Origin: Stappia sp. 28M-7
GTDB taxonomy: Bacteria; Pseudomonadota; Alphaproteobacteria; Rhizobiales; Stappiaceae
Length of the DNA stretch: 64,000 bases
Direction of reading: 5' to 3'
NCBI RefSeq assembly: GCF_014252955.1
Contig: NZ_JACMIA010000001.1
Coordinates: 2,130,258 to 2,194,257 of the forward strand
Program-made: the position numbers and the translations under genes
Notes under the pieces: generated by a model
What the model was told of the DNA's origin: nothing
The model's input: only the letters and a program-made list of their open reading frames with translations
The model's database searches: none
Shown: piece after piece, positions 31,705 to 44,341 of the stretch
Position numbering within the stretch: position 1 is the stretch's first letter
Layout of the letters: the number at the start of each line of letters is the position of its first letter

Positions 31705-32994
31705 CTAGCGTGCGGCAAGGCCGTAGTCGCCGAAGCTGATGAAGTCGACCAGCTGCCCCTCGACGACCGAGGTCGCTTCCTCGGGAATCTCGATCAGGCC
31801 GTCGGCCTCGCGCAGCGAGGTGATGAGGCCGGATCCGTCGCGGGCGAACTTGCGCACGACGGTTCGCCCGGCTGAGTCGCTCTCGAGAATGCCGCGATAG
31901 AACTCCCGGCGGTCGGGCTTTTTCTTGGGGACGGAGAAGGCGGCCGGGATCTGGTAGCGCACCGGCTCGAAGAAGGCACCGCCGCCGAGTGCGGACAGGA
32001 CCGGCAGCACGTAGAGCAGACCGCAGACCATGGCGGCAACCGGATTGCCCGGCAGGCCCAGCGTGACGCAGTCGCCAATGCGGCCGAAATTCATCGGCCG
32101 GCCCGGTTTGATCGCCAGTTGCCACATGTGCCGGCTGCCGAGTTCGTCGATGGCGGCGACGAAATGATCTTCCTCACCGCGTGAGGCGCCTCCGGTCGTG
32201 ACGATGACGTCATGGGTCAGGGCGGCAGCCGACAGGGCGGCCTGCACTGCCTCGGCCCGGTCCGGCAAGATGCCGAGGTCGGTGATCTCGACCCCGCTTG
32301 CGGCAACGAGGCCGGAGAGTAGGAAGTGATTGCTGTCGTAGACGCCGCCGGCAGGCAGCGGCTGGCCGGGACGGCGCAACTCGTCGCCGCTGGAGACCAG
32401 CGCCACGCGCAGCCTGCGAAACACATCGACACGGCCCGCCCCGGTGGAGGCGATTGCGGCAATGTCCTGGGGCCTCAGGCGGGCGCCGGCCTGCACCAGA
32501 ACCTCACCGGCCTTCAGGTCCTCGCCGGCCTTGCGCCGGTTGGCGCCTGGCTTCAGGCCGGGCGGAACATGGACGAAGGTCTGGCCGCCGCGCTCGGTGA
32601 TCTCGCAGTCCTCCTGCATGACAACCGTGTCGGCCCCGTCCGGCATGAGGGCGCCGGTGAAGATCCGCGCCGCGCTGCCGGGGGCAAGAGGGGACTTGAG
32701 CGGGTGACCGGCGGCGATGCGTGCCGATATCGGCAGCAGGCCGTCGCCGGCCGACAGATAGTGGTCATGGAGGAAGGCGTAGCCATCGACGGCGGAATTG
32801 TCGGCGAGTGGCACATTCTGCGCTGCCACGACGGAGCGGGCGAGAATGCGGGCGTGGGCTTCGCCGAGTGCGACGCTTTCCTGTCCCACCACCGGAACGA
32901 TCCGCTCCCGCAGAATCGCCAGCGCCTCCGCATGGCGCAGCCGATCGCGGTCGTGCAGGAAACAGTCGTCAAGCAGTCGTCTGGTCGGAGCCAT
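31705..32994 (-). CDS. moeA: Molybdopterin molybdotransferase MoeA
   Basis: A 429-residue MoeA, which inserts molybdate into adenylated molybdopterin. Motifs include PLADNSAVDGYAFLHDHY, ARIFTGALMPDGADTVVMQEDCEI, VALVSSGDEL, IVTTGGASRGEEDHF, and LGLPGNPVAAMVCGLLYVLPVL. The ATG at 32994 lies 26 bp inside the upstream mobB gene. It is the last gene of a fully overlapping fdhD-mobA-mobB-moeA operon, so cofactor finishing is coupled to the formate dehydrogenase activator FdhD. Confidence 0.95.
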   Translation of the reverse strand: MAPTRRLLDDCFLHDRDRLRHAEALAILRERIVPVVGQESVALGEAHARILARSVVAAQNVPLADNSAVDGYAFLHDHYLSAGDGLLPISARIAAGHPLKSPLAPGSAARIFTGALMPDGADTVVMQEDCEITERGGQTFVHVPPGLKPGANRRKAGEDLKAGEVLVQAGARLRPQDIAAIASTGAGRVDVFRRLRVALVSSGDELRRPGQPLPAGGVYDSNHFLLSGLVAASGVEITDLGILPDRAEAVQAALSAAALTHDVIVTTGGASRGEEDHFVAAIDELGSRHMWQLAIKPGRPMNFGRIGDCVTLGLPGNPVAAMVCGLLYVLPVLSALGGGAFFEPVRYQIPAAFSVPKKKPDRREFYRGILESDSAGRTVVRKFARDGSGLITSLREADGLIEIPEEATSVVEGQLVDFISFGDYGLAAR

Positions 32995-33523
32995 GTCGGT
33001 TCCCGGAAAGTCCGCAGGTGGACAGGATGAAGTCGGCAATGCCGTCGATATCGTCGAGATGGTAGACCGGCAGAGTCGCATCCGCCACGGCGCCGTCCGA
33101 GGCTATGGCGACCACATGCGGATCATTCGGCGAAAGCGCCTCGCCGCGCGCGGCAGCAGTCCGGCGCAGCTCGAGCTTGGGCAGGGCCTCGCGCTTGTAG
33201 CCCTCCACCAGCACCAGGTCGCAGGGCGACAGGCGGGCGAGAATCTCGGCAAGTGAAGGTTCGGCCTTCTCGCGCAACTCGTGCATCAAGGCCCACCGCC
33301 GGCCCGATACCAGCGCGGTCTCGACGGCGCCGGCCGTCCGGTGGCGGTGACTGTCCGTGCCCTCCTGGTCGATGTCGAAGGCGTGATGCGCGTGTTTGAC
33401 GGTCGCAACGCGAAACCCGCGCGCCGTGATCGCCGCAACGAGGCGCTCGGTCATCGTGGTCTTGCCGCTGTTCTTCCACCCGGCGATGCCGAACACCGGT
33501 GCGGGATGCCTGCTGTCGCTCAT
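32969..33523 (-). CDS. mobB: Molybdopterin-guanine dinucleotide adapter protein MobB
   Basis: A 184-residue P-loop GTPase. Walker A is GIAGWKNSGKTTMTERLV; the conserved VATVKHAHHAFDIDQEGTDSHRHRTAGA follows, and CDLVLVEGYKREALPKLE is the Walker-B-like region. It assists MobA in making the guanine dinucleotide form of Mo cofactor. It overlaps mobA by 4 bp and moeA by 26 bp. Confidence 0.94.
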   Translation of the reverse strand: MSDSRHPAPVFGIAGWKNSGKTTMTERLVAAITARGFRVATVKHAHHAFDIDQEGTDSHRHRTAGAVETALVSGRRWALMHELREKAEPSLAEILARLSPCDLVLVEGYKREALPKLELRRTAAARGEALSPNDPHVVAIASDGAVADATLPVYHLDDIDGIADFILSTCGLSGNRHGSDQTTA

Positions 33524-34146
33524 GCCTCGGCTTTCAGCAGCTCTTCGGCTGCGGCAAGGTCTTCCGGCGTGTTGACGTTGAAGAACGGATCGGGCGCGCC
33601 GGGCGGCGGAGTGAAATCGGCACTGGCATTGGGGTGCATGTCGACGAAGGCGAGCACCTTGCGGGTCGTACCCTCGCGCAGAAAAGTCTCGAGCGAGTCC
33701 GCCGCCGAGACCGGCCAGTAGCCGAAAACCGGATGCATGTGCCCATCGGCTCGGGCCAGGACGATCCGGTGGGGATCCTCGCCGCGTGCGGCCATCAGGC
33801 GAACAGCAAGGTCAGCCGGGTAGAACGGCGTGTCGCCGGCGACCGAGACGATCCCTTCCGCTTGCGGCGCATGAACCTGCGCCCAGCGGAGGCCGGCCAG
33901 TACGCCGGCCAGCGGCCCGGCAAAGCCGTCGACCGGATCGGGAGCGACCGGCAGGCCGAAGCCGGCGAAGCGCCCGGCCTCGCCGTTGGCGTTGAGCACG
34001 AGAGGGCCGACCTGCGGCCGAAGCCGTGCGATGACGCGGGCGAGCATGGTTTCGCCGCCCAAGGACAACAGCGGCTTGTCGCCGCCGCCCATGCGGCGGG
34101 CAAGGCCGCCGGCCAGAATGCATCCTGCGAGAGCGGGCGTGGTCAT
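33520..34146 (-). CDS. mobA: Molybdenum cofactor guanylyltransferase MobA
   Basis: A 208-residue nucleotidyltransferase adding GMP to Mo-molybdopterin to give MGD, the form used by formate dehydrogenase. GCILAGGLARRMGGGDKPLLSLGGETML is the GTP-binding signature, and VSVAGDTPFYPADL carries the metal-binding Asp. The ATG at 34146 overlaps fdhD by 4 bp; longer open frame upstream is within fdhD. Confidence 0.95.
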   Translation of the reverse strand: MTTPALAGCILAGGLARRMGGGDKPLLSLGGETMLARVIARLRPQVGPLVLNANGEAGRFAGFGLPVAPDPVDGFAGPLAGVLAGLRWAQVHAPQAEGIVSVAGDTPFYPADLAVRLMAARGEDPHRIVLARADGHMHPVFGYWPVSAADSLETFLREGTTRKVLAFVDMHPNASADFTPPPGAPDPFFNVNTPEDLAAAEELLKAEA

Positions 34147-35063
34147 GCGGCGTCGTCCTCGCTGCGCGATCCCTTGCGGGCATGGCGCGGGTCCTCGCGG
34201 TCGCCCGCCTCGGGAACGGCGTCGTATTCCACCCGTTCGGCACCGGACAGCACGACGAAGCGCTGGCCGCGCGCCCGGCCGACCAGCGTCAGCCCGACGC
34301 GCCGGGCAAGCTCCACGCCCCAGGCGGTGAAGCCGGAGCGCGAGACCAGAATGGGGATGCCCATCATTGCGGTCTTGATCACCATCTCGGAGGTCAGCCG
34401 GCCGGTGGTGTAGAAGATCTTGTCCTGCGGCGGAATGTGGTTGAGCCACATCCAGCCGGCGATCTTGTCGACGGCGTTGTGCCGTCCGACGTCTTCCATA
34501 TAAGCGACGGCGCGGTCTTCCTGGCACAGCACGCAGCCGTGGATCGCGCCGGCCTCCAGGTAGAGCGAGGGCTGGGTGTTGATCTTCCGGGTGAGGGCGT
34601 GGAGCCAGGAGGTGCGCAGGCGGGCCTGCGTATCGAGCGAGATCTCGTCGAAGCGTTCCATCACGTCGCCGAAGACGGTGCCTTGCGCACAGCCCGAGGT
34701 GCGCACCTTCTTCTTCATCTTCTCCTCGTAGTCGGTCTCGCGCTCGGTGCGCACGACCACAACCTCGAGATCGTCGTCATAGTCGATGCCGGTGATGCGG
34801 TCGTCCGGCCGCAACATGTTCTGGTTCAGCAGGTAGCCGACCGCCAGCAGGTCCGGCCGGTCGCCGATCGTCATCATGGTGACGATCTCCTGCGAGTTGA
34901 GATAGAGCGTCAGCGCCCGTTCCGTGACGACGCGGATTTCCACCTCGCGGCCGGTCTGGTCGATGCCGGTGACGGGTGTTGAAAGGCGCTCATCCTGTGG
35001 GTCGGGCCGAACGAGAAAATCCGGCAACCGTTCCGGGTCGGCGTCGTTGCGAAGATTCTGCAA
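34143..35063 (-). CDS. fdhD: Formate dehydrogenase sulfurtransferase FdhD
   Basis: A 306-residue protein that transfers sulfur to the Mo-bisMGD of formate dehydrogenase. Landmarks are LTLYLNSQEIVTMMTIGDRPDLLAVGYLLNQNML, EDVGRHNAVDKIAGWMW, FYTTGRLTSEMVIKTAMMGIPILVSRSGFTAWGVELAR. Translation begins at TTG 35063, with GGGAGGA at a 6-nt spacing. In the mobile loop it has SGCAQGT around C125 instead of the CxxC known from E. coli, so only one of two Cys is present. First gene of the Mo-cofactor operon. Confidence 0.93.
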   Translation of the reverse strand: MQNLRNDADPERLPDFLVRPDPQDERLSTPVTGIDQTGREVEIRVVTERALTLYLNSQEIVTMMTIGDRPDLLAVGYLLNQNMLRPDDRITGIDYDDDLEVVVVRTERETDYEEKMKKKVRTSGCAQGTVFGDVMERFDEISLDTQARLRTSWLHALTRKINTQPSLYLEAGAIHGCVLCQEDRAVAYMEDVGRHNAVDKIAGWMWLNHIPPQDKIFYTTGRLTSEMVIKTAMMGIPILVSRSGFTAWGVELARRVGLTLVGRARGQRFVVLSGAERVEYDAVPEAGDREDPRHARKGSRSEDDAA

Positions 35064-35191
35064 GCTGTCCTCCCTGCCGTGCCGGCCGTCATGCGCCCGT
35101 TTTACGGGGTGCTCGGCGCACGGTGTCTGTTATGGCACAAACTAGGGAAGGAGAGGCGAGGCTGGCAAGGGTAGGGGTGTGCGTGTCGGCC

Positions 35192-35650
35192 TCAAGCCGA
35201 TATGGCACGCGGTTGTGCATTGAGGCGGGCATGGCGGGCGGCGCTGAAGATCACAGCAGACGCGAGATCGTCGTAGCTGGCAAGTTCCGGCGCCTGGCAG
35301 ATCGGGATGTAGAGGTTCGACAAGACGGCATCCTGCGAATCGAGCGCATCGGCGAAGAACATCGGCATGCCGGGAAGCAGGCGCGCGGTGTCCTCGCGTC
35401 GGTCGATGATCTGGCAGCCGACGTGCCGGGTGTCGTCGATGATGCGTGCAAAGGCGCGCTCGACTGCGCCGTGCTCTCCCTCCAACACCTGAAAGAAGGT
35501 GTTTCCGGCAAGCAACAGCGCACTTGTGAGCCCGTCTCGGGTGTTGTTGCGGCGAGCGACCGCGAGCAGCCGGTCGACTTCCTCGTCGAGCGACAAGGTC
35601 ATGTCGCTGAAGTTGATCCTGCTCCGGTAACTCACCCGGGTGATGGTCAT
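35192..35650 (-). CDS. BLUF-domain blue-light sensor protein
   Basis: A 152-residue single-domain BLUF protein. The flavin-pocket residues are all present: Tyr8 (RVSYRSRI), Asn36 (RRNNTRDGLTSALLL) and Gln54 (FFQVLEGE), with Asn-Gln spacing equal to AppA. Such proteins bind FAD and report blue light through a hydrogen-bond switch. ATG 35650 is chosen because GAGG sits 7 nt upstream and it matches the paralogue's start; an ATG at 35674 lacks a ribosome site. With no output domain, it must act through a partner. It sits between fdhD and a second BLUF-like gene. Confidence 0.88.
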   Translation of the reverse strand: MTITRVSYRSRINFSDMTLSLDEEVDRLLAVARRNNTRDGLTSALLLAGNTFFQVLEGEHGAVERAFARIIDDTRHVGCQIIDRREDTARLLPGMPMFFADALDSQDAVLSNLYIPICQAPELASYDDLASAVIFSAARHARLNAQPRAISA

Positions 35651-35781
35651 GGACTGCCTCAATGCGTCTGTCATGGCGTGCAGTCTAGTGACAACCCCTT
35701 CGCGTTCCGTAAGTGGAAAACCGAAGTCTTGCCTGTGGTCATTAACTCACTGGCAAGCAAGCAGGATCGCGGTCGTCGGGG

Positions 35782-36237
35782 TCAGACGAGGAGTGCTGCC
35801 CGGGTAAAGCGGCAATCCTCGAGCCGCCGGGCCAGGCAAGCGACCGCATCGCGCACCCGGGACAGGTCCGCCGGGGCGGTGCCGGTCAACACTTCGGCAA
35901 CCTTCGCAGGCATTTCCATGCGGTCGTCCCGGCCGTTGGCAAGGCAGAGCCAGCAATGCGGAAAGAGGCGGGTGTCGAGCGGGCCTTCACAGATAATCTC
36001 GACGCGGGACAGCCGAAGATCGCCTTCCGCGCAGGTGCGGCTGTCGGCAAGTCCCGACGCTTCGCCTTCCAGCCAAAGGAGGACGTGGTCGCCCTGTCGC
36101 AGAAGAACGCCGGTTACGCCGTTCAGGCGGTTGAGGCGGCGCGTCCGGTCGAGCAACAGGTCGACGTCTGCGCAAGACAGACCGTCAAGGGAGCTACCGT
36201 CGATGCGGGCCCTGTAGCAGATCGCACTCAGTACCAT
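35782..36237 (-). CDS. Degenerate BLUF-like protein
   Basis: A 151-residue paralogue of the BLUF gene downstream. It keeps Tyr8 (SAICYRARI), Asn36 (RRLNRLNGVTGVLL) and the LEG turn, but the Gln that drives BLUF photochemistry is Leu54 (HVLLWLEGE). It also has a longer insert (SSLDGLSCADVDLL). It may bind flavin without a light response, or serve as a partner of the intact BLUF protein. The ATG at 36237 has AAGGA upstream; the open frame further up is not used. Divergent from mrp. Confidence 0.75.
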   Translation of the reverse strand: MVLSAICYRARIDGSSLDGLSCADVDLLLDRTRRLNRLNGVTGVLLRQGDHVLLWLEGEASGLADSRTCAEGDLRLSRVEIICEGPLDTRLFPHCWLCLANGRDDRMEMPAKVAEVLTGTAPADLSRVRDAVACLARRLEDCRFTRAALLV

Positions 36238-36506
36238 TTTTCCGATCCTTGCTTGCGGACTCCCCAGCCGCCCTTGAAGTTTGCGCGCAAGGTCTCGATC
36301 AATGGTTAAAAAGGGGCTGATGATGTCGTGAAAATCACGTCTGTCGCGGTTTTCTCCCCTTGTCGCTGGCCGGAGGCGGCAAGGTGGGGCCCGCGTGAGG
36401 GGCCCTGCGACGGGAAAGCAATTGACGTTTCCCGGTACGGCCTTACGTTCCGCGCATGTGATCGGGCACGGGAATTGTGATGTTCTGGAAGAAAAAGAGG
36501 GATGCA

Positions 36507-37688
36507 ATGCCGACGCGTGAAGAGGTCCTGGCCGAGCTTTCCAAGGTCAAGGGGCCGGATCTCGAAGGGGATATCGTATCGCTCGGCCTTGTCTCGGATA
36601 TTTTCATTTCCGATGGCAGGGTGATCTTTTCGATCACCGTCCCTGCGGAACGGGCGCAGGAGCTGGAGCCGATGCGGCAGGCGGCCGAGAAGGTCGTCGG
36701 CAAGCTTGCCGGTGTCGAGAAGGTGCTGGCTGCCCTGACCTCCGAGCGCCAGGGCGGGGCAGGGGCGAAGGCACCGCCGCCGGTACGGCCCGCGCCCGCG
36801 GCCGCCGACATGGGCAGCGTCCCGCCGCCGATGCAGCGCCGCGCCGCGCCGGCCGCGCCAGAGCAGACGGCAAAGCCCGGCGTGCCCGGTGTCAAGGCGA
36901 TCATCGCGGTCGCCTCCGGCAAGGGCGGTGTCGGCAAGTCGACGACCACCTGCAACCTGGCCCTCGCGCTGCAGGCTAACGGGCTCAAGGTCGGTGTGCT
37001 CGACGCGGATATCTACGGCCCGTCGATCCCGCGCCTGTTCCGCGTTTCCGGGCGGCCGGAGCCGGTGTCCGGCCGTATCCTCAAGCCGCTGGAAGGCTAT
37101 GGCATCAAGGTGATGTCGATGGGCTTCCTCGTGGAGGAGGAAACCCCGATGATCTGGCGCGGGCCGATGGTGATTTCGGCGATCACCCAGATGCTGCGCG
37201 AGGTCGCGTGGGGCGAACTGGACGTGCTGGTGGTCGACATGCCTCCCGGCACGGGCGACGCGCAACTGACCATGGCTCAGAACGTGCCGCTTGCCGGTGC
37301 GGTGATCGTCTCGACGCCGCAGGACCTGGCTCTGATCGATGCGCGCAAGGGGCTCAACATGTTCCGCCGTGTGGATGTGCCGCTGCTCGGCATCGTGGAG
37401 AACATGAGCTATTTCCTTTGCCCGGACTGCGGCGGGCGTCACGACATCTTCGGTCATGGCGGTGCACGCGCGGAAGCCGAGAAGCTCGGTGTCCCGTTCC
37501 TGGGCGAGGTGCCGCTCGACATGGCGATCCGGATCAATTCCGATGCAGGAACGCCCGTGACCGTGACCGATCCGGACGGGGCCCATGCGGCGATCTATCG
37601 TGATATCGCGACCAAGGTCTGGGCCGAGATCGAGCGAAACCGCGAGGACGGCCAGCGTGCCGCGCCGCGTATCGTCATCGAGAGCTAG
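36507..37688 (+). CDS. mrp: Mrp/NBP35-type Fe-S cluster carrier ATPase
   Basis: A 393-residue protein: N-terminal MIP18/DUF59-like domain (residues ~1-85), Pro/Ala linker, and a P-loop domain (IIAVASGKGGVGKSTTTCNLALAL; VLDADIYGPSIPRLF; DVLVVDMPPGTGDAQL). The CPDC motif in SYFLCPDCGGRHDIF would bind the bridging Fe-S cluster. ATG 36507 follows GAGGGA; an ATG at 36480 is an alternative. It ends at a strong terminator. Fe-S delivery fits the many Fe-S proteins encoded downstream. Confidence 0.93.
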   Translation: MPTREEVLAELSKVKGPDLEGDIVSLGLVSDIFISDGRVIFSITVPAERAQELEPMRQAAEKVVGKLAGVEKVLAALTSERQGGAGAKAPPPVRPAPAAADMGSVPPPMQRRAAPAAPEQTAKPGVPGVKAIIAVASGKGGVGKSTTTCNLALALQANGLKVGVLDADIYGPSIPRLFRVSGRPEPVSGRILKPLEGYGIKVMSMGFLVEEETPMIWRGPMVISAITQMLREVAWGELDVLVVDMPPGTGDAQLTMAQNVPLAGAVIVSTPQDLALIDARKGLNMFRRVDVPLLGIVENMSYFLCPDCGGRHDIFGHGGARAEAEKLGVPFLGEVPLDMAIRINSDAGTPVTVTDPDGAHAAIYRDIATKVWAEIERNREDGQRAAPRIVIES

Positions 37689-38085: not shown

Positions 38086-38114
38086 ACGCAACGCAAAACC
38101 GAAAGCGTTTGCGT
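38086..38114 (+). promoter_or_regulatory. Imperfect inverted repeat in the leader of the fdh operon
   Basis: ACGCAACGC (38086-38094) and GCGTTTGCGT (38105-38114) pair with one bulged base around a 10-nt loop, ending 46 bp before the torD-like ATG. As RNA this would be a leader hairpin; as DNA a binding site. Confidence 0.45.
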
Positions 38115-38160
38115 GCACCCGTCCAAAATGACAATCTGCAAGGTGAGGGAGATTAATTGC

Positions 38161-38832
38161 ATGATCAACAAGCCGGATTTCGGTGCCGCAGCTGCGGAAG
38201 CCGGAACGTCGGACGCACATGCTGCCGAGAGAATGATGGTCGTCCCCGAAGATCGGGAGCGGGCCATCCTTTATGGCATTCTGGCGAGCGGTCTGGAGCG
38301 GGCTGCGGATCGTGGCTGGCTGGCCGCGATCGCCGCGCTGCCGCGTCTCGAGGGCGAAATCGGCGGTCCGTTGGCAGAGCTCTCCCGTATCGCCGCAACC
38401 GCGGACCCCGAAGTGCTGCGACGCGAATATCACGACCTCTTCATCGGGGTTGGGCGCGGCGAGCTGGTCCCATACGCTTCCTATTATCTGACCGGATTTT
38501 TGAACGAGAAGCCGCTGGCGCTGTTACGGCAGGACATGCGCCGGCTCGGCATCGAACGCGATCCGGACATTCACGAGCCGGAGGATCACATCGCGGCGAT
38601 TTGCGCGATGATGGCCGGACTGATCGACGGCAGCTTCGGTGATGGCGACGAGGAGGAGGCTTCCGCCTTCTTCCGTGCTCACCTTGCCGTTTGGGCGCCC
38701 TATTTCTTCAAGGATCTGGCCGCGTCCGAAACCGGCGAACTGTATCCTGCGCTCGGGCGCCTGGGGCAGGCTTTCACGGCGGTCGAGATCGAGGCTGACA
38801 GGCTTTTCGCGGAGCGCCGCAAGGCGGGTTGA
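38161..38832 (+). CDS. TorD-family molybdoenzyme maturation chaperone
   Basis: A 223-residue, all-helical protein of the TorD/DmsD family that binds the Tat signal of a molybdoenzyme and holds it for cofactor insertion. LYGILASGLE, LRREYHDLFIGVGRGELVPYASYYLTGFLNEKPLALLRQDM and the diagnostic HEPEDHIAAICAMM are present. GAGGGAG lies about 8 nt before ATG 38161; an in-frame GTG at 38113 lacks that support. As first gene of the operon, its client is the Tat-dependent formate dehydrogenase alpha subunit. Confidence 0.92.
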   Translation: MINKPDFGAAAAEAGTSDAHAAERMMVVPEDRERAILYGILASGLERAADRGWLAAIAALPRLEGEIGGPLAELSRIAATADPEVLRREYHDLFIGVGRGELVPYASYYLTGFLNEKPLALLRQDMRRLGIERDPDIHEPEDHIAAICAMMAGLIDGSFGDGDEEEASAFFRAHLAVWAPYFFKDLAASETGELYPALGRLGQAFTAVEIEADRLFAERRKAG

Positions 38833-38916
38833 GTATCTGGCCCGGCGCAGGCCGGGCAAGGCGGGTGGCGGGCGAAACTGCTGCCCAGGGCAATGTAAGT
38901 GGAACGAGAGGGTGTC

Positions 38917-39108
38917 ATGAGACGCAAGGACACAGCGATTGAGGCGGATCGTCGGAGTTTCCTGAAGCTTGCAGGGCTCGGTGCCGTGGCCGGCACGGCG
39001 ACGCTCGTGACTGGCGAGGCCGAAGCGGTCGAGGCCGACAAGGCGGCTGGGAGCGGCTACCGCGAGACCGAGCATGTGAAGACCTTCTACGACACGGCCC
39101 GGTTCTGA
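38917..39108 (+). CDS. Formate dehydrogenase region Tat mini-protein (TIGR02811-like)
   Basis: A 63-residue protein that is mostly a twin-arginine signal: EADRRSFLKLAGLGAVAGTATLVTGEAEA, followed by a short tail ending ETEHVKTFYDTARF. Small Tat-signal proteins of this type are regularly encoded beside formate dehydrogenases (TIGR02811, from memory). ATG 38917 with GAGAGG upstream is preferred over GTG 38899. The role is unknown: a decoy for the chaperone, or a small exported subunit. Confidence 0.85.
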   Translation: MRRKDTAIEADRRSFLKLAGLGAVAGTATLVTGEAEAVEADKAAGSGYRETEHVKTFYDTARF

Positions 39109-39229
39109 TCCGCAAGGACGCCGGACTGTCTGAAGTCGCAATCAGCGCCCCGTGCCGAAGGCAAAAGAATGGGGCATGCGCAGAACCAGTCGCCACGAAG
39201 CGGCCCTGCGCTATCGAGGGAGAAACGTG

Positions 39230-42211
39230 ATGCTGAGGAAGAAGACGAGCGGGACTGCGCGTCGTTCCAGCCTGGCTTCCGCGATCGAGGCGATCGGCGC
39301 CAGCGCGATGGACCGCCGTACGTTCCTGCGCAGGTCGGGCCTTGCCGCGGGCGGGCTCGCCGCAGCCGGGGCACTTACCGGTGGCATGGTGCGCAAGGCC
39401 GAAGCGGCCGGGCCGACCAATGCCAAGGTCGAGATCAAGAAGACTGTCTGCACGCACTGTTCGGTTGGCTGCACCGTGCTGGCGGAAGTGCAGGATGGCG
39501 TGTGGACCGGCCAGGAGCCGGGCTTCGACAGCCCCTTTAACCTCGGTTCGCACTGCGCCAAGGGCGCCTCGGTGCGCGAGCATGCCCATGGCGAGCGCCG
39601 CCTGAAGTACCCGACCAAGCTGGTCGGCGGAAAGTGGGAGCGCATTTCCTGGGATCAGGCGATCAACGAGATCGGCGATCAGATGCTGAAGATCCGCGAC
39701 GAGAGCGGTCCGGACAGCGTCTACTGGCTCGGCTCGGCCAAGCACAGCAACGAGCAGGCCTATCTGGTCCGCAAGTTCGCGGCCTTCTGGGGCACGAACA
39801 ACGTCGACCACCAGGCGCGTATCTGTCACTCCACCACGGTCGCAGGTGTCGCGAACACCTGGGGTTACGGTGCGATGACGAACTCGTACAACGACATCCA
39901 CAATTCCAAGGCGATCTTCATCATCGGCGGCAATCCCGCCGAGGCGCATCCGGTCTCGCTGCTTCACGTGCTGAAGGCGAAGGAAGAGAACGCTGCGCCG
40001 CTGATCGTCTGCGATCCGCGCTTCACCCGCACCGCAGCGCATGCGTCCGAGTATGTCCGCTTCCGTCCGGGCTCCGACGTGGCTCTGGTCTGGGGTATCC
40101 TCTGGCACATCTTCGAGAACGGCTGGGAGGACAAGGAGTTCCTGCGCCAGCGCGTCTGGGGCATGGACCAGATCAAGGTGGAAGTGGCCAAGTGGACGCC
40201 CGAGGAGACCGAGCGCGTCACCGGCGTCCCGGGTTCGCAGCTGAAGCGCGTCGCCCGTACGCTCGCCAACAACCGTCCGGGCACCGTCATCTGGTGCATG
40301 GGCGGCACGCAGCACACCAATGGCAACAACAACACCCGCGCCTACTGCGCCCTTCAGCTGGCTCTCGGCAACATGGGCAAGGCCGGCGGCGGCACCAACA
40401 TCTTCCGCGGCCATGACAACGTGCAGGGTGCGACGGACCTTGGCGTGCTTGCCGATACGCTGCCGGGCTACTACGGCCTGGCGGAAGGCTCCTGGCGCCA
40501 CTGGGCGCGCGTGTGGGGCGTTTCCTACGACAGCCTTGCCGAGCGCTTCGCCACGATGAAGGGCGCCGACGGCAAGGACAAGGCCATGATGTTCGAGAGC
40601 GGCATCACGGTGTCGCGCTGGATCGACGGCGTTCTGGAAGACAAGGCGAACCTGCTTCAGCCCGACAACACACGCGCCATGGTGTTCTGGGGCCATGCCC
40701 CGAACTCGCAGACCCGTCTGCCCGACATGAAGCGGGCGATGGAGAAGCTCGATCTGCTGGTCATCATCGATCCGTTCCCGACCATGTCGGCGGTGATGCA
40801 TGACCGCAAGGACGGCGTCTACCTGCTGCCGGCGACGACCCAGTTCGAGACCTATGGCTCGGTGACCGCGTCGAACCGCTCGCTGCAGTGGCGCGAGAAG
40901 GTCATCGATCCGCTGTTCGAGTCCAAGACCGACCACTCCATCGCGTATCTCTTCGCGAAGAAGTTCGGTTTTGCCGAGGACATGTTCAAGAACATCGAGG
41001 TGAACGGCGAGGAGCCGCTCATCGAGGACGTGACCCGCGAGTTCAACCGCGGCATGTGGACCATCGGCTATACCGGCCAGTCGCCGGAGCGCCTGAAGCT
41101 GCACATGCAGAACCAGCACACGTTCGACCGTACGACCCTGCGCGCCAATGGCGGGCCGGCGGACGGCGACTTCTACGGCATGCCTTGGCCGTGCTGGGGC
41201 TCGGCGGAGATGAAGCATCCCGGTTCGGCGGTGCTTTACGATACGTCGCTGCCGGTTGCCGAAGGCGGCATGGGCTTCCGCGCCCGCTTCGGCGTCGAGA
41301 AGGATGGCGACAACCTGCTGGCCGAAGGCTCCTGGCCTGTCGGTTCGGAGATCGAGGACGGCTATCCCGAGTTCACCATGGCCATGCTGATCAAGCTGGG
41401 CTGGGACAAGGATCTGACGCCCTACGAGCGCCGGATGATCGAATGGGTCGCCGGCATGGTGGATGCCATGCCTTCGTCGGAAGAGGTCGGCGAGACCTCG
41501 CAGACCGGGGATATCCCCTCCGACTACAATGACAAGGTCGGCGGCGTGAACTGGAAGACCGACCTGTCCGGCGGCATCCAGCGCGTTGCGATCAAGCATG
41601 GCTGCGCGCCCTACGGCAACGCCAAGGCCCGCGCAGTGGTGTGGACCTTCCCGGATCCGGTGCCGCTGCACCGCGAGCCGCTCTACACCAGCCGTCGTGA
41701 CCTGCTCGACAAGTATGCGACCTATGAGGACAAGACCTTCTGGCGCGTCCCCACCCGCTACAAGTCGATCCAGGAGAACGACTATTCCAAGGACTTCCCG
41801 ATCATCCTGACCTCGGGGCGCCTGGTGGAATACGAAGGCGGCGGCGACGAGACCCGCTCCAACCCGTGGCTGGCCGAGCTGCAGCAGGACATGTTCGTCG
41901 AGGTCAACCCGCGCGATGCCAACAATCTCGGCATTCGCGACCGGGAAATGGTTTGGGTGCACGGTCCGGAGGGCGGCAAGGTCAAGGTGATGGCCATGGT
42001 GACCGAGCGTGTCGGTGTGGGCGTGGCCTTCATGCCCTTCCACTTCGGCGGTCACTTCCAGGGCGAGGACCAGAGGCACAAGTATCCGACCGGTTCGGAT
42101 CCTTATGTGCTCGGCGAGGCGACCAACACCGCCCAGACCTACGGCTATGACAGCGTCACCCAGATGCAAGAAACCAAGGCCACGCTCTGCCGCATCGAGC
42201 GCGTGGCGTAA
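39230..42211 (+). CDS. fdhA: Formate dehydrogenase, Mo-bisMGD catalytic alpha subunit
   Basis: A 993-residue DMSO-reductase-family enzyme oxidising formate to CO2. A Tat signal (MDRRTFLRRSGLAAGGLAAAGAL) at residues ~27-50 sends it to the periplasm. Cys74, 77, 81 and 109 (CTHCSVGC...SHC) bind the proximal 4Fe-4S cluster. The Mo ligand is Cys199 in DHQARICHSTT, so it is a cysteine rather than selenocysteine enzyme, followed by the essential His200. The C-terminal part is a molydopterin-dinucleotide-binding domain (IILTSGRLVEYEGGG...EVNPRDANNLGI). ATG 39230 follows GAGGGAG. It is cotranscribed with its chaperone, beta and gamma subunits. Confidence 0.96.
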   Translation: MLRKKTSGTARRSSLASAIEAIGASAMDRRTFLRRSGLAAGGLAAAGALTGGMVRKAEAAGPTNAKVEIKKTVCTHCSVGCTVLAEVQDGVWTGQEPGFDSPFNLGSHCAKGASVREHAHGERRLKYPTKLVGGKWERISWDQAINEIGDQMLKIRDESGPDSVYWLGSAKHSNEQAYLVRKFAAFWGTNNVDHQARICHSTTVAGVANTWGYGAMTNSYNDIHNSKAIFIIGGNPAEAHPVSLLHVLKAKEENAAPLIVCDPRFTRTAAHASEYVRFRPGSDVALVWGILWHIFENGWEDKEFLRQRVWGMDQIKVEVAKWTPEETERVTGVPGSQLKRVARTLANNRPGTVIWCMGGTQHTNGNNNTRAYCALQLALGNMGKAGGGTNIFRGHDNVQGATDLGVLADTLPGYYGLAEGSWRHWARVWGVSYDSLAERFATMKGADGKDKAMMFESGITVSRWIDGVLEDKANLLQPDNTRAMVFWGHAPNSQTRLPDMKRAMEKLDLLVIIDPFPTMSAVMHDRKDGVYLLPATTQFETYGSVTASNRSLQWREKVIDPLFESKTDHSIAYLFAKKFGFAEDMFKNIEVNGEEPLIEDVTREFNRGMWTIGYTGQSPERLKLHMQNQHTFDRTTLRANGGPADGDFYGMPWPCWGSAEMKHPGSAVLYDTSLPVAEGGMGFRARFGVEKDGDNLLAEGSWPVGSEIEDGYPEFTMAMLIKLGWDKDLTPYERRMIEWVAGMVDAMPSSEEVGETSQTGDIPSDYNDKVGGVNWKTDLSGGIQRVAIKHGCAPYGNAKARAVVWTFPDPVPLHREPLYTSRRDLLDKYATYEDKTFWRVPTRYKSIQENDYSKDFPIILTSGRLVEYEGGGDETRSNPWLAELQQDMFVEVNPRDANNLGIRDREMVWVHGPEGGKVKVMAMVTERVGVGVAFMPFHFGGHFQGEDQRHKYPTGSDPYVLGEATNTAQTYGYDSVTQMQETKATLCRIERVA

Positions 42212-42223
42212 GGGGGAAAAACC

Positions 42224-42823
42224 ATGGCACGGATGAAATTCCTCTGTGACGCCGAGCGCTGCATCGAGTGCAATGCCTGCGTAACTGCCTGCAAGAACGA
42301 GCACGAGGTGCCGTGGGGCATCAATCGTCGCCGCGTGGTGACCATTCAGGACGGCAAGCCGGGCGAGCGCTCGATTTCCGTCGCCTGCATGCACTGCTCC
42401 GACGCGCCCTGCATGGCGGTGTGCCCGGTCGACTGCTTCTACCAGACCGACGAGGGTGTGGTCCTTCACTCCAAGGACCTGTGCATCGGCTGCGGATACT
42501 GCTTCTACGCCTGCCCCTTCGGCGCGCCGCAGTATCCTCAGGCCGGCAACTTCGGTTCGCGCGGCAAGATGGACAAGTGCACCTTCTGCGCCGGCGGTCC
42601 CGAGGCGGACAACTCCTCGGCCGAGTACGCCAAGTACGGCCGCAACCGTCTGGCCGAGGGCAAGCTCCCGCTCTGCGCGGAGATGTGCTCGACCAAGGCT
42701 CTGCTGGCCGGCGACGGCGACGTGGTCTCGTCGATCTATCGCGAGCGCGTCGTGGCCCGCGGCTTCGGCTCCGGAGCCTGGGGCTGGGGCACTGCCTACG
42801 AGCAGAAGGCAGGCAGCTTCTGA
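42224..42823 (+). CDS. fdhB: Formate dehydrogenase iron-sulfur beta subunit
   Basis: A 199-residue four-cluster ferredoxin-like subunit that passes electrons from the alpha subunit to the membrane cytochrome. Cys groups are CIECNACVTACKNEH, CMHCSDAPCMAVCP, CIGCGYCFYACPFG and CTFC...LCAEMCSTKAL, the usual arrangement for this family. There is no C-terminal membrane helix, unlike FdnH of E. coli. It follows fdhA by 12 bp. Confidence 0.95.
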   Translation: MARMKFLCDAERCIECNACVTACKNEHEVPWGINRRRVVTIQDGKPGERSISVACMHCSDAPCMAVCPVDCFYQTDEGVVLHSKDLCIGCGYCFYACPFGAPQYPQAGNFGSRGKMDKCTFCAGGPEADNSSAEYAKYGRNRLAEGKLPLCAEMCSTKALLAGDGDVVSSIYRERVVARGFGSGAWGWGTAYEQKAGSF

Positions 42824-42852
42824 TCGGTACCTTTTTAAGGCCGTTAAGAATG

Positions 42853-42879
42853 ACAGGGGCGGCCTGCGGCCGCCTCTGT
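42853..42879 (+). other. Strong intercistronic hairpin after fdhB
   Basis: ACAGGGGCGGCC, TGC, GGCCGCCTCTGT: a 12-bp stem with one G.U-type mismatch and a 3-nt loop, 30 bp after the fdhB stop and without a T-run. It fits an mRNA-stabilising or partial-attenuation hairpin separating fdhAB from the genes below. Confidence 0.6.
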
Positions 42880-42930
42880 TGCGTCGGTGGGGCATGGAAC
42901 CCGCCGAAACTCGACTGAGGAGAGAGTGAC

Positions 42931-43128
42931 GTGAAATCGGGATCAGCCACGTGGGGCATGTTGGTCGTCGCGGGAGCGCTGCTGGCGCTCGTTCCGGGGT
43001 GCCGGGACGATGAGCAGAATCGCCCGCTGCATCTCGAAAAGGGCGTCTATCAGGGTGCGGACGATGCTCCGCTCACCGCGGAAGAGCGCCGCACGCTGCA
43101 AGAACGCGGCAACCGGCAGCGCTTCTGA
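42931..43128 (+). CDS. Small lipoprotein in the formate dehydrogenase operon
   Basis: Sixty-five residues starting with GTG at 42931 (AGGAGAGAG upstream). A lipoprotein signal (MLVVAGALLALVPGC) puts the lipidated Cys at about residue 24; the mature part is only ~42 polar residues (RDDEQNRPLHLEKGVYQGADDAPLTAEERRTLQERGNRQRF). I do not recognise a named family. Its place between the beta and gamma subunit genes suggests a periplasmic-side stabiliser or extra subunit of the enzyme. Confidence 0.8.
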   Translation: MKSGSATWGMLVVAGALLALVPGCRDDEQNRPLHLEKGVYQGADDAPLTAEERRTLQERGNRQRF

Positions 43129-43183
43129 GGCGCGTCGACAGCCTGAAGATCAAACCTGCGGACGGAACAGGGGAGGGACTAGG

Positions 43184-44341
43184 ATGTACCACACGGGAAC
43201 CATGCGCCCCGCATACATCTCGAACGGCATTGTCTGGCGGCTTCGCACCGCGCTCATGGTGGTGGTCGCCGCTCTGTTCTTGGCGCTCTCGGTCCAGGAT
43301 TCTGCCTTGGCGCAGCCGGTCGACAACGATCCGGCAACCGTATCACCCGTGCAGGGACAGGTGCCGGGCAACACGCTGGGGACGGATTCCGACACCGAGA
43401 TGTGGCGTGCAGTCCGTCAGGGCGTTGCCGGACAGGTTTCCATCCCGGACAAGAACGCGGCAACACTCGTTCAGTCGGAAGGCGAACTTTGGCGCTCCAT
43501 CCGCAACGGGCCGCTTGCGCTTTATGCAAGCTGGGCGATGCTGGCCATGGTCGTGGTTCTGAGCCTGTTCTTTGCGATCCGTGGACGGATTCGCATCGAG
43601 CATGGACGGTCCGAACAGACCATCACCCGCTTTGCCGCCTTCGAGCGCTTCGGCCACTGGCTTCTGGCTTCGTCCTTCATCATCCTGGCGCTGACCGGCC
43701 TGAACGTGATGTACGGCCGGTATGTGCTGTTGCCGGTCATCGGTCCCGAGGCCTTCGGAGCGCTGACGATCTTCGGCAAGTATCTGCACAATTATCTCGC
43801 CTTTGCCTTCATGGCGGGTCTCGTTATCATCTTCGTGATGTGGGTCAGCCATAACCTGCCGCACAAGACCGACATCAAGTGGGTCCTGCAGGGCGGCGGC
43901 ATCTTTTCGCGCAAGCTCCATCCGCCCGCGAAGAAGTTCAATGCCGGTCAGAAGGTGATCTTCTGGCTGACGATCCTTGGCGGCCTGTCGATTTCCATGT
44001 CCGGCTGGACCCTGCTTTTCCCGTACACCACGCACTTCTTCTCCGGCACGTTCGAGCTGGTGAATACCGTGTTCGGAACCGCGCTGCCGGCCTCCCTGTC
44101 GCCGCTGCAGGAACAGCAACTCGCCTCGCTGTGGCACTCGATCATGAGTGTGTTCCTGATCTGCGTGATCATCGCGCACATCTATATCGGCACCATCGGC
44201 ATGGAGGGCGCCTTCGACGCCATGGGCTCCGGCGAGGTCGATCTCAATTGGGCGAAGGAGCACCATTCGCTCTGGGTCGACGAAGTGATGGCCCGCGAGG
44301 CGGAGCACAAGGGACCGAGCAAGGTCCAGCCCGCAGAGTAG
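43184..44341 (+). CDS. fdhC: Formate dehydrogenase cytochrome b gamma subunit
   Basis: A 385-residue membrane subunit: signal-like first helix, ~90-residue periplasmic domain, another helix, then a four-helix di-haem b core (FERFGHWLLASSFIILALTGLNVMYGRYVLLP; YLHNYLAFAFMAGLVIIFVMWVSHNLPHKTD; FWLTILGGLSISMSGWTLLFPYTT; WHSIMSVFLICVIIAHIYIGTIGMEGAFDAM). His residues in helices would bind haem and pass electrons to quinone. ATG 43184 follows GGGAGG; the frame extends upstream without function. Confidence 0.94.
   Translation: MYHTGTMRPAYISNGIVWRLRTALMVVVAALFLALSVQDSALAQPVDNDPATVSPVQGQVPGNTLGTDSDTEMWRAVRQGVAGQVSIPDKNAATLVQSEGELWRSIRNGPLALYASWAMLAMVVVLSLFFAIRGRIRIEHGRSEQTITRFAAFERFGHWLLASSFIILALTGLNVMYGRYVLLPVIGPEAFGALTIFGKYLHNYLAFAFMAGLVIIFVMWVSHNLPHKTDIKWVLQGGGIFSRKLHPPAKKFNAGQKVIFWLTILGGLSISMSGWTLLFPYTTHFFSGTFELVNTVFGTALPASLSPLQEQQLASLWHSIMSVFLICVIIAHIYIGTIGMEGAFDAMGSGEVDLNWAKEHHSLWVDEVMAREAEHKGPSKVQPAE

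Follow-up and report, generated by a model that had tools for sequence, protein, structure and literature searches.

Two short BLUF genes stand in tandem on the minus strand between fdhD and mrp in the Stappia sp. 28M-7 genome, within the 64,000-nucleotide stretch of DNA analysed here (the window). One product, BLUF1 (B1), has Tyr, Asn and Gln at the photochemical positions, and the other, BLUF2 (B2), carries Leu where the Gln would stand. We give an even chance to the interpretation that B1 serves as a photoreceptor, whereas B2 is a BLUF regulator, insensitive to light or locked, that works via a partner protein. B2 belongs to a lineage in which the Tyr and the Gln have been lost repeatedly, and which occupies a constant place beside molybdenum cofactor genes across the Stappiaceae.

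The BLUF pair and its photochemical residues

B1 (35192..35650, minus strand) encodes 152 amino acids with Tyr8, Asn36 and Gln54 (codon CAG at 35489-35491), and B2 (35782..36237, minus strand) encodes 151 amino acids with Tyr8, Asn36 and Leu54 (codon CTT at 36076-36078). Both match the Pfam BLUF domain PF04940 above its cut-off of 25 bits (B1, 67.8 bits, E 9.3e-19; B2, 38.3 bits, E 1.4e-9), and a genome-wide search found no BLUF domains other than these two. The initial annotation had described a tandem pair with Tyr8 and Asn36 in both proteins and Gln54 versus Leu54, placed between fdhD and mrp. Its coordinates and residues proved correct in every checkable detail. The start of B1 is assigned to the ATG at 35650, which aligns with the starts of 12 Stappia orthologues that give Tyr at residue 8 (residue 6 in one of them); a start at 35674, as originally listed, was dropped because the orthologues favour 35650. 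B2 starts at the ATG at 36237. With 151-152 amino acids, PF04940 as the only domain and a helical C-terminus (modelled helices at residues 108-119 and 126-145 in B1, 111-118 and 125-142 in B2), both proteins have the architecture of short BLUF proteins.

The identity of position 54 was established with a profile of the B2 group, for which the BLUF domain of AppA is the best match among solved structures. In the profile alignment, position 54 shares its column with AppA Gln63 (FFQWLEG), and Arg75, aligned with AppA Arg84, is almost invariant across the group. Tyr8, the counterpart of AppA Tyr21 and a mark of photoactive BLUF domains, is present in both B1 and B2. The Gln is found in B1 and all 13 Stappia B1 proteins, and is replaced by Leu in B2. 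A sequencing error at codon 54 of B2 was considered and ruled out, as Leu is common to four species: the three nearest species (81-84% identical) have Leu as well, and the next one has Val.

That the Gln is required for BLUF photochemistry, as asserted in the initial annotation, is borne out by AppA Gln63Leu (Q63L), which is photoinactive (PMC4780082). Moreover, Slr1694 Q50A and AppA Q63E are reported to be locked in pseudo-lit states; for BlsA, both Y7 and Q51 matter in vivo, with Q51A shifting dark motility to a lit-like level (PMC6695109). A protein that loses the Gln may therefore fall silent or signal constitutively. A published pattern for BLUF mining, used in at least one genome survey, demands an initial Tyr and a terminal Gln (PMC4844311); used as a plain expression, it misses 14 of the 108 family proteins collected here, B2 included. 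Because of Leu54, and because it escapes a pattern that ends in Gln, B2 is classed from its sequence as a BLUF-fold protein only, not as a BLUF photoreceptor.

Genomic context and conservation of the locus

Downstream of B1, and on the same strand, lie fdhD (34143..35063, minus strand; formate dehydrogenase accessory sulfurtransferase, TTG start, TIGR00129 at 150.3 bits), mobA (33520..34149, minus strand; molybdenum cofactor guanylyltransferase, TIGR02665 at 194.6 bits) and mobB (32969..33523, minus strand; TIGR00176 at 166.6 bits), all three above cut-off, as well as moeA (31705..33081, minus strand; molybdopterin molybdotransferase), for which the best NCBIfam model, PRK10680.1, scores 393 bits, below its cut-off of 440. 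On the B2 side, mrp/apbC (36477..37688, plus strand; Fe-S cluster carrier ATPase, PRK11670.1 at 347.6 bits versus a cut-off of 348) is divergent from B2. The same side holds a torD-like chaperone gene with fdhA, fdhB (FDH3 beta) and fdhC, an FDH3-type respiratory formate dehydrogenase cluster (38113..44341, plus strand) in which the FDH3_beta (345 bits) and formate-DH-gamm (146 bits) matches are above cut-off, and those to TorD and Fdh-alpha are below theirs.

The gap between B1 and fdhD (35064..35191, minus strand) contains a conserved promoter-like block, CTTGCC-N18-CTAGTTT, and a Shine-Dalgarno motif, GGAGG, ahead of the TTG start of fdhD. The gap from the B2 stop to the B1 start (35651..35781, minus strand) spans 131 bp (131-174 bp in the genus) and holds a conserved CTTGCC-N-GTTAATG block. 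An alignment of the 13 Stappia gaps shows this block to be near-palindromic in several species, reading CTTGCCGGCAAG and then GTTAATG; the copy in the window, CTTGCCAGTGAG, is imperfect. We regard the near-palindrome CTTGCCGGCAAG between B2 and B1 as a candidate operator. The separate promoter-like blocks suggest separate promoters for the BLUF genes and fdhD, so that fdhD and the BLUF genes need not share a transcript. A consensus scan of the region reported no sigma-70 site, and a single terminator-like site inside B2, which is no more than shuffled sequences give.

BLUF proteins are present in 84 of 87 Stappiaceae genomes. The tandem pair occupies the place seen in the window in 13 of 14 Stappia genomes; the exception (G077), an assembly 85% complete, has a single BLUF gene at another place. 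The nearest named relatives found for the genome of the window are Stappia indica SBBC 49 and Stappia sp. WLB 29. The surroundings of the pair are thus conserved among relatives, which favours the initial annotation, since unrelated neighbourhoods would have counted against it. In the other genera of the family a BLUF gene, usually one, occupies the same place at the upstream end of the moeA-mobA-(fdhD) run. Every BLUF gene with mobA or fdhD on the examined stretch shares the strand of that gene (92 of 92), and mrp, if present, is always on the opposite one; the distance in this set is between 87 bp and 5.5 kb, except for a BLUF gene of G002 that lies 13 kb away. Among the places listed for an order-level sample of 397 genomes, no BLUF gene beside mobA was found by eye outside the Stappiaceae.

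The initial annotation had linked the pair to a formate dehydrogenase locus. This description holds for the window, where fdhD and the FDH3 genes flank the pair, but it is too narrow for the family: no fdhD was detectable in 16 genomes of the presumably Pseudovibrio-like genus g6 and five of genus g4, and all 21 retain a BLUF gene at mobA or mrp. The link of the locus is therefore with the molybdenum cofactor and mrp genes, not with formate dehydrogenase.

Two minor variants of the locus were observed. In genus g4 (L070 in G008 and L071 in G009), an independent tandem pair of canonical BLUF genes lies near mrp, with no mobA on the stretch, and forms a clade separate from the Stappia pair in the tree described below. 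In genus g7 of the Roseibium group (L119 in G057 and L121 in G043), the BLUF gene at the fdhD place comes from another subfamily with Tyr at residue 9; these proteins branch separately from the remaining locus BLUFs and may represent a replacement.

Proximity to moeA and mobA need not mean that B2 shares their function, as gene order is conserved region-wide. The chance that the BLUF genes are unrelated to molybdenum cofactor or formate metabolism, being passengers of a conserved region that act elsewhere, for example in motility or biofilm formation, is put somewhat below even. This alternative concerns the output only and is compatible with the other explanations. It is consistent with the family-wide conservation of much of the region's gene order, amino-acid transport genes included, and with the known roles of short BLUF proteins in motility, biofilm and iron (PMC4844311; PMC5955987). 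Moreover, the open literature searched, with incomplete coverage, contained no paper linking BLUF proteins with molybdenum cofactor biosynthesis, and, concerning BLUF proteins in Stappia, incidental mentions but no study. Conversely, the neighbours of the BLUF gene vary, with a permease, an SDR and a GNAT gene (names from translations) present in some genomes and absent from others, whereas its place and strand stay constant, which argues against a mere passenger.

Phylogeny and repeated loss of Tyr and Gln

For the phylogeny, the columns of Tyr, Asn and Gln were masked; the resulting tree is based on few columns and has moderate supports. B1 forms a Stappia-only clade of 13, and B2 falls into a clade of 73 that also holds the single-copy locus BLUFs of Roseibium/Labrenzia, of the Pseudovibrio-like genus g6 and of others. 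Judged from this tree, B2 is the orthologue of the single locus BLUF of the Stappiaceae. Tyr8 and/or Gln54 are missing in 15 of the 73 B2-type proteins (Gln in 10, Tyr in 10) versus none of the 13 B1 proteins, and all 13 Stappia B1 copies retain Tyr, Asn and Gln. By parsimony, the B2-type clade has seen at least four changes of the Gln and seven to eight of the Tyr, one of the eight being a doubtful row that falls into the clade only after rerooting. Gln54 is replaced by Leu (in the window and the three nearest species), Val, Cys, Lys, Phe, Met or His, and Tyr8 by Phe or Leu; Asn36 is retained in 14 of the 15 deficient proteins. In six genomes (G004, G005, G006, G020, G027 and G031) the sole BLUF protein lacks Tyr and/or Gln, so that no detected BLUF protein there has the full photochemical set.

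A broader explanation of this pattern is that the BLUF lineage was recruited family-wide to the molybdenum cofactor locus for a light-independent task, such as flavin or redox sensing or the holding of a cofactor-related partner. Tyr and Gln would thus have been free to be lost repeatedly, with fold and place kept. We consider this possible, albeit on the improbable side.

Selection, fold and alternative roles of B2

Pairwise dN/dS for B2 in the Gln-less Stappia clade ranges from 0.13 to 0.30 with a median of 0.21 (0.10-0.30 under other trimming), about twice what B1 gives in these genomes (0.07-0.18, median 0.105). Gln-keeping B2 pairs give 0.11-0.22, close to Gln-less B2. Hence, B2 is under purifying selection and constrained somewhat less than B1. 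Few genes of the locus change faster: B2 is 84% identical to the nearest species, versus 97% for fdhD and 97% for mrp; given this fast change and the doubled dN/dS, partial decay of B2 is possible. The further-reaching proposal that B2 is a decaying paralogue, and that light sensing in Stappia passed to the second copy, appears unlikely. Besides the rapid divergence, it could account for the scatter of Tyr and Gln losses over the tree, and it fits with the occurrence of the most altered copies in two Pseudovibrio-like genomes that rank among the smallest. Still, dN/dS lies far below 1 and is similar in Gln-keeping B2 pairs, the BLUF copies are intact open reading frames, mostly of 148-156 amino acids and free of internal stops, and Tyr or Gln is also lost in genomes without a second BLUF gene.

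The initial annotation had proposed a flavin-redox sensor or a heterodimer in which a light-active copy pairs with a light-blind one. In such a B1-B2 hetero-oligomer, B1 alone would answer light and B2 would tune or anchor it. Short BLUF proteins such as PixD form oligomers, the pair is strictly in tandem in 13 Stappia genomes, and the C-terminal helical parts are conserved in both proteins, which makes the arrangement conceivable in the clade of the window. As a general explanation it does not hold, because the only BLUF protein of six genomes, in single-copy genera, is itself deficient in Tyr and/or Gln; moreover, both copies are photochemically complete in 6 of the 13 Stappia pairs. The two gaps of about 130 bp with conserved blocks of their own do not require stoichiometric expression either. 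It fails to explain the overall pattern, and we rate it as quite unlikely. Least probable is a B2 that is still photoactive through another hydrogen-bond partner near the flavin: although the clade to which the window belongs retains Tyr8 and Asn36, the strand of position 54 has no other Gln (Gln48 of B2 sits at the preceding turn) and the equivalent AppA substitution is photoinactive.

The AlphaFold model of B2 (pLDDT 81) aligns with the solved structures of TePixD, BlrB and Slr1694 over 133-134 of 151 residues, C-terminal helices included, with Z scores of 16.6-17.1. The sequence of B2 is thus compatible with the ferredoxin-like fold of short BLUF proteins, a prediction of fold and not of flavin binding. 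PixD (Slr1694, Tll0078/TePixD) and BlrB resemble B2 in their length of about 150 amino acids, in the predicted fold with two C-terminal helices, and in Tyr8 and the Asn. They differ from it in that B2 has Leu at the light-switching Gln and shares 15-23% sequence identity with them; B1 keeps all three of the photochemical residues. BlsA of Acinetobacter baumannii is likewise a stand-alone BLUF protein with a matching fold (Z 15.4-15.8) and acts via partner proteins, but it retains Tyr7 and Gln51, and its targets are Fur and motility rather than molybdenum cofactor genes (PMC6695109, PMC5955987). AppA Q63L carries Leu at this position, as B2 does; however, the AppA mutants are laboratory variants of a long protein with further domains, whereas B2 is natural and stands alone.

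Proposed role of B2

Returning to the preferred interpretation of B2 as a light-insensitive or locked regulator beside a photoreceptor, B1 would be a working short BLUF photoreceptor, as suggested by its residues. B2 keeps flavin-pocket residues such as Asn36 and Arg75 and, by prediction, the fold, but lacks the light-switching Gln, and could be either fixed in one signalling state or responsive to flavin occupancy or redox; a flavin-redox role is thus possible. By analogy with PixD, BlsA and AppA, its beta-sheet and C-terminal helices may be the surfaces that bind a partner protein. The ancestor of B2 would have become fixed at the upstream end of the molybdenum cofactor gene run in the Stappiaceae, and the position at these genes suggests that its output is probably the supply of molybdoenzyme or molybdenum cofactor, or a neighbouring process. 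We infer the flavin binding and photochemical state of B2 as well as its partner protein and output, and partner and output form the weakest step because the gene order of the entire region is conserved.

BLUF domains count as blue-light sensors, and a survey pattern that demands Tyr and Gln excludes B2-like proteins by design. A lineage that repeatedly dropped Tyr and Gln, yet stayed under selection at a housekeeping locus of constant position, would provide evidence from nature that the BLUF fold has a dark function. The B2-type lineage also supplies naturally occurring replacements of the Gln (by Leu, Val, Cys, Lys, Phe, Met and His) with which BLUF signalling can be tested.

Further BLUF-like proteins with altered residues were observed in other families of the same order. 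In genus g102 of family f11 (L185-L192 and L195, at about 1220-2060), Phe/Leu-Ser-Glu replaces Tyr-Asn-Gln, and in the two loci read, L187 and L190, the gene directly adjoins a same-strand purL-like gene. L178 holds a related form, Phe-Ser-Gln, which adjoins a purQ-like sequence (names from translations). In family f28 (L183, L193, L194, L196 and L197), the BLUF-like proteins carry Phe-Asp-Gln in place of Tyr-Asn-Gln.
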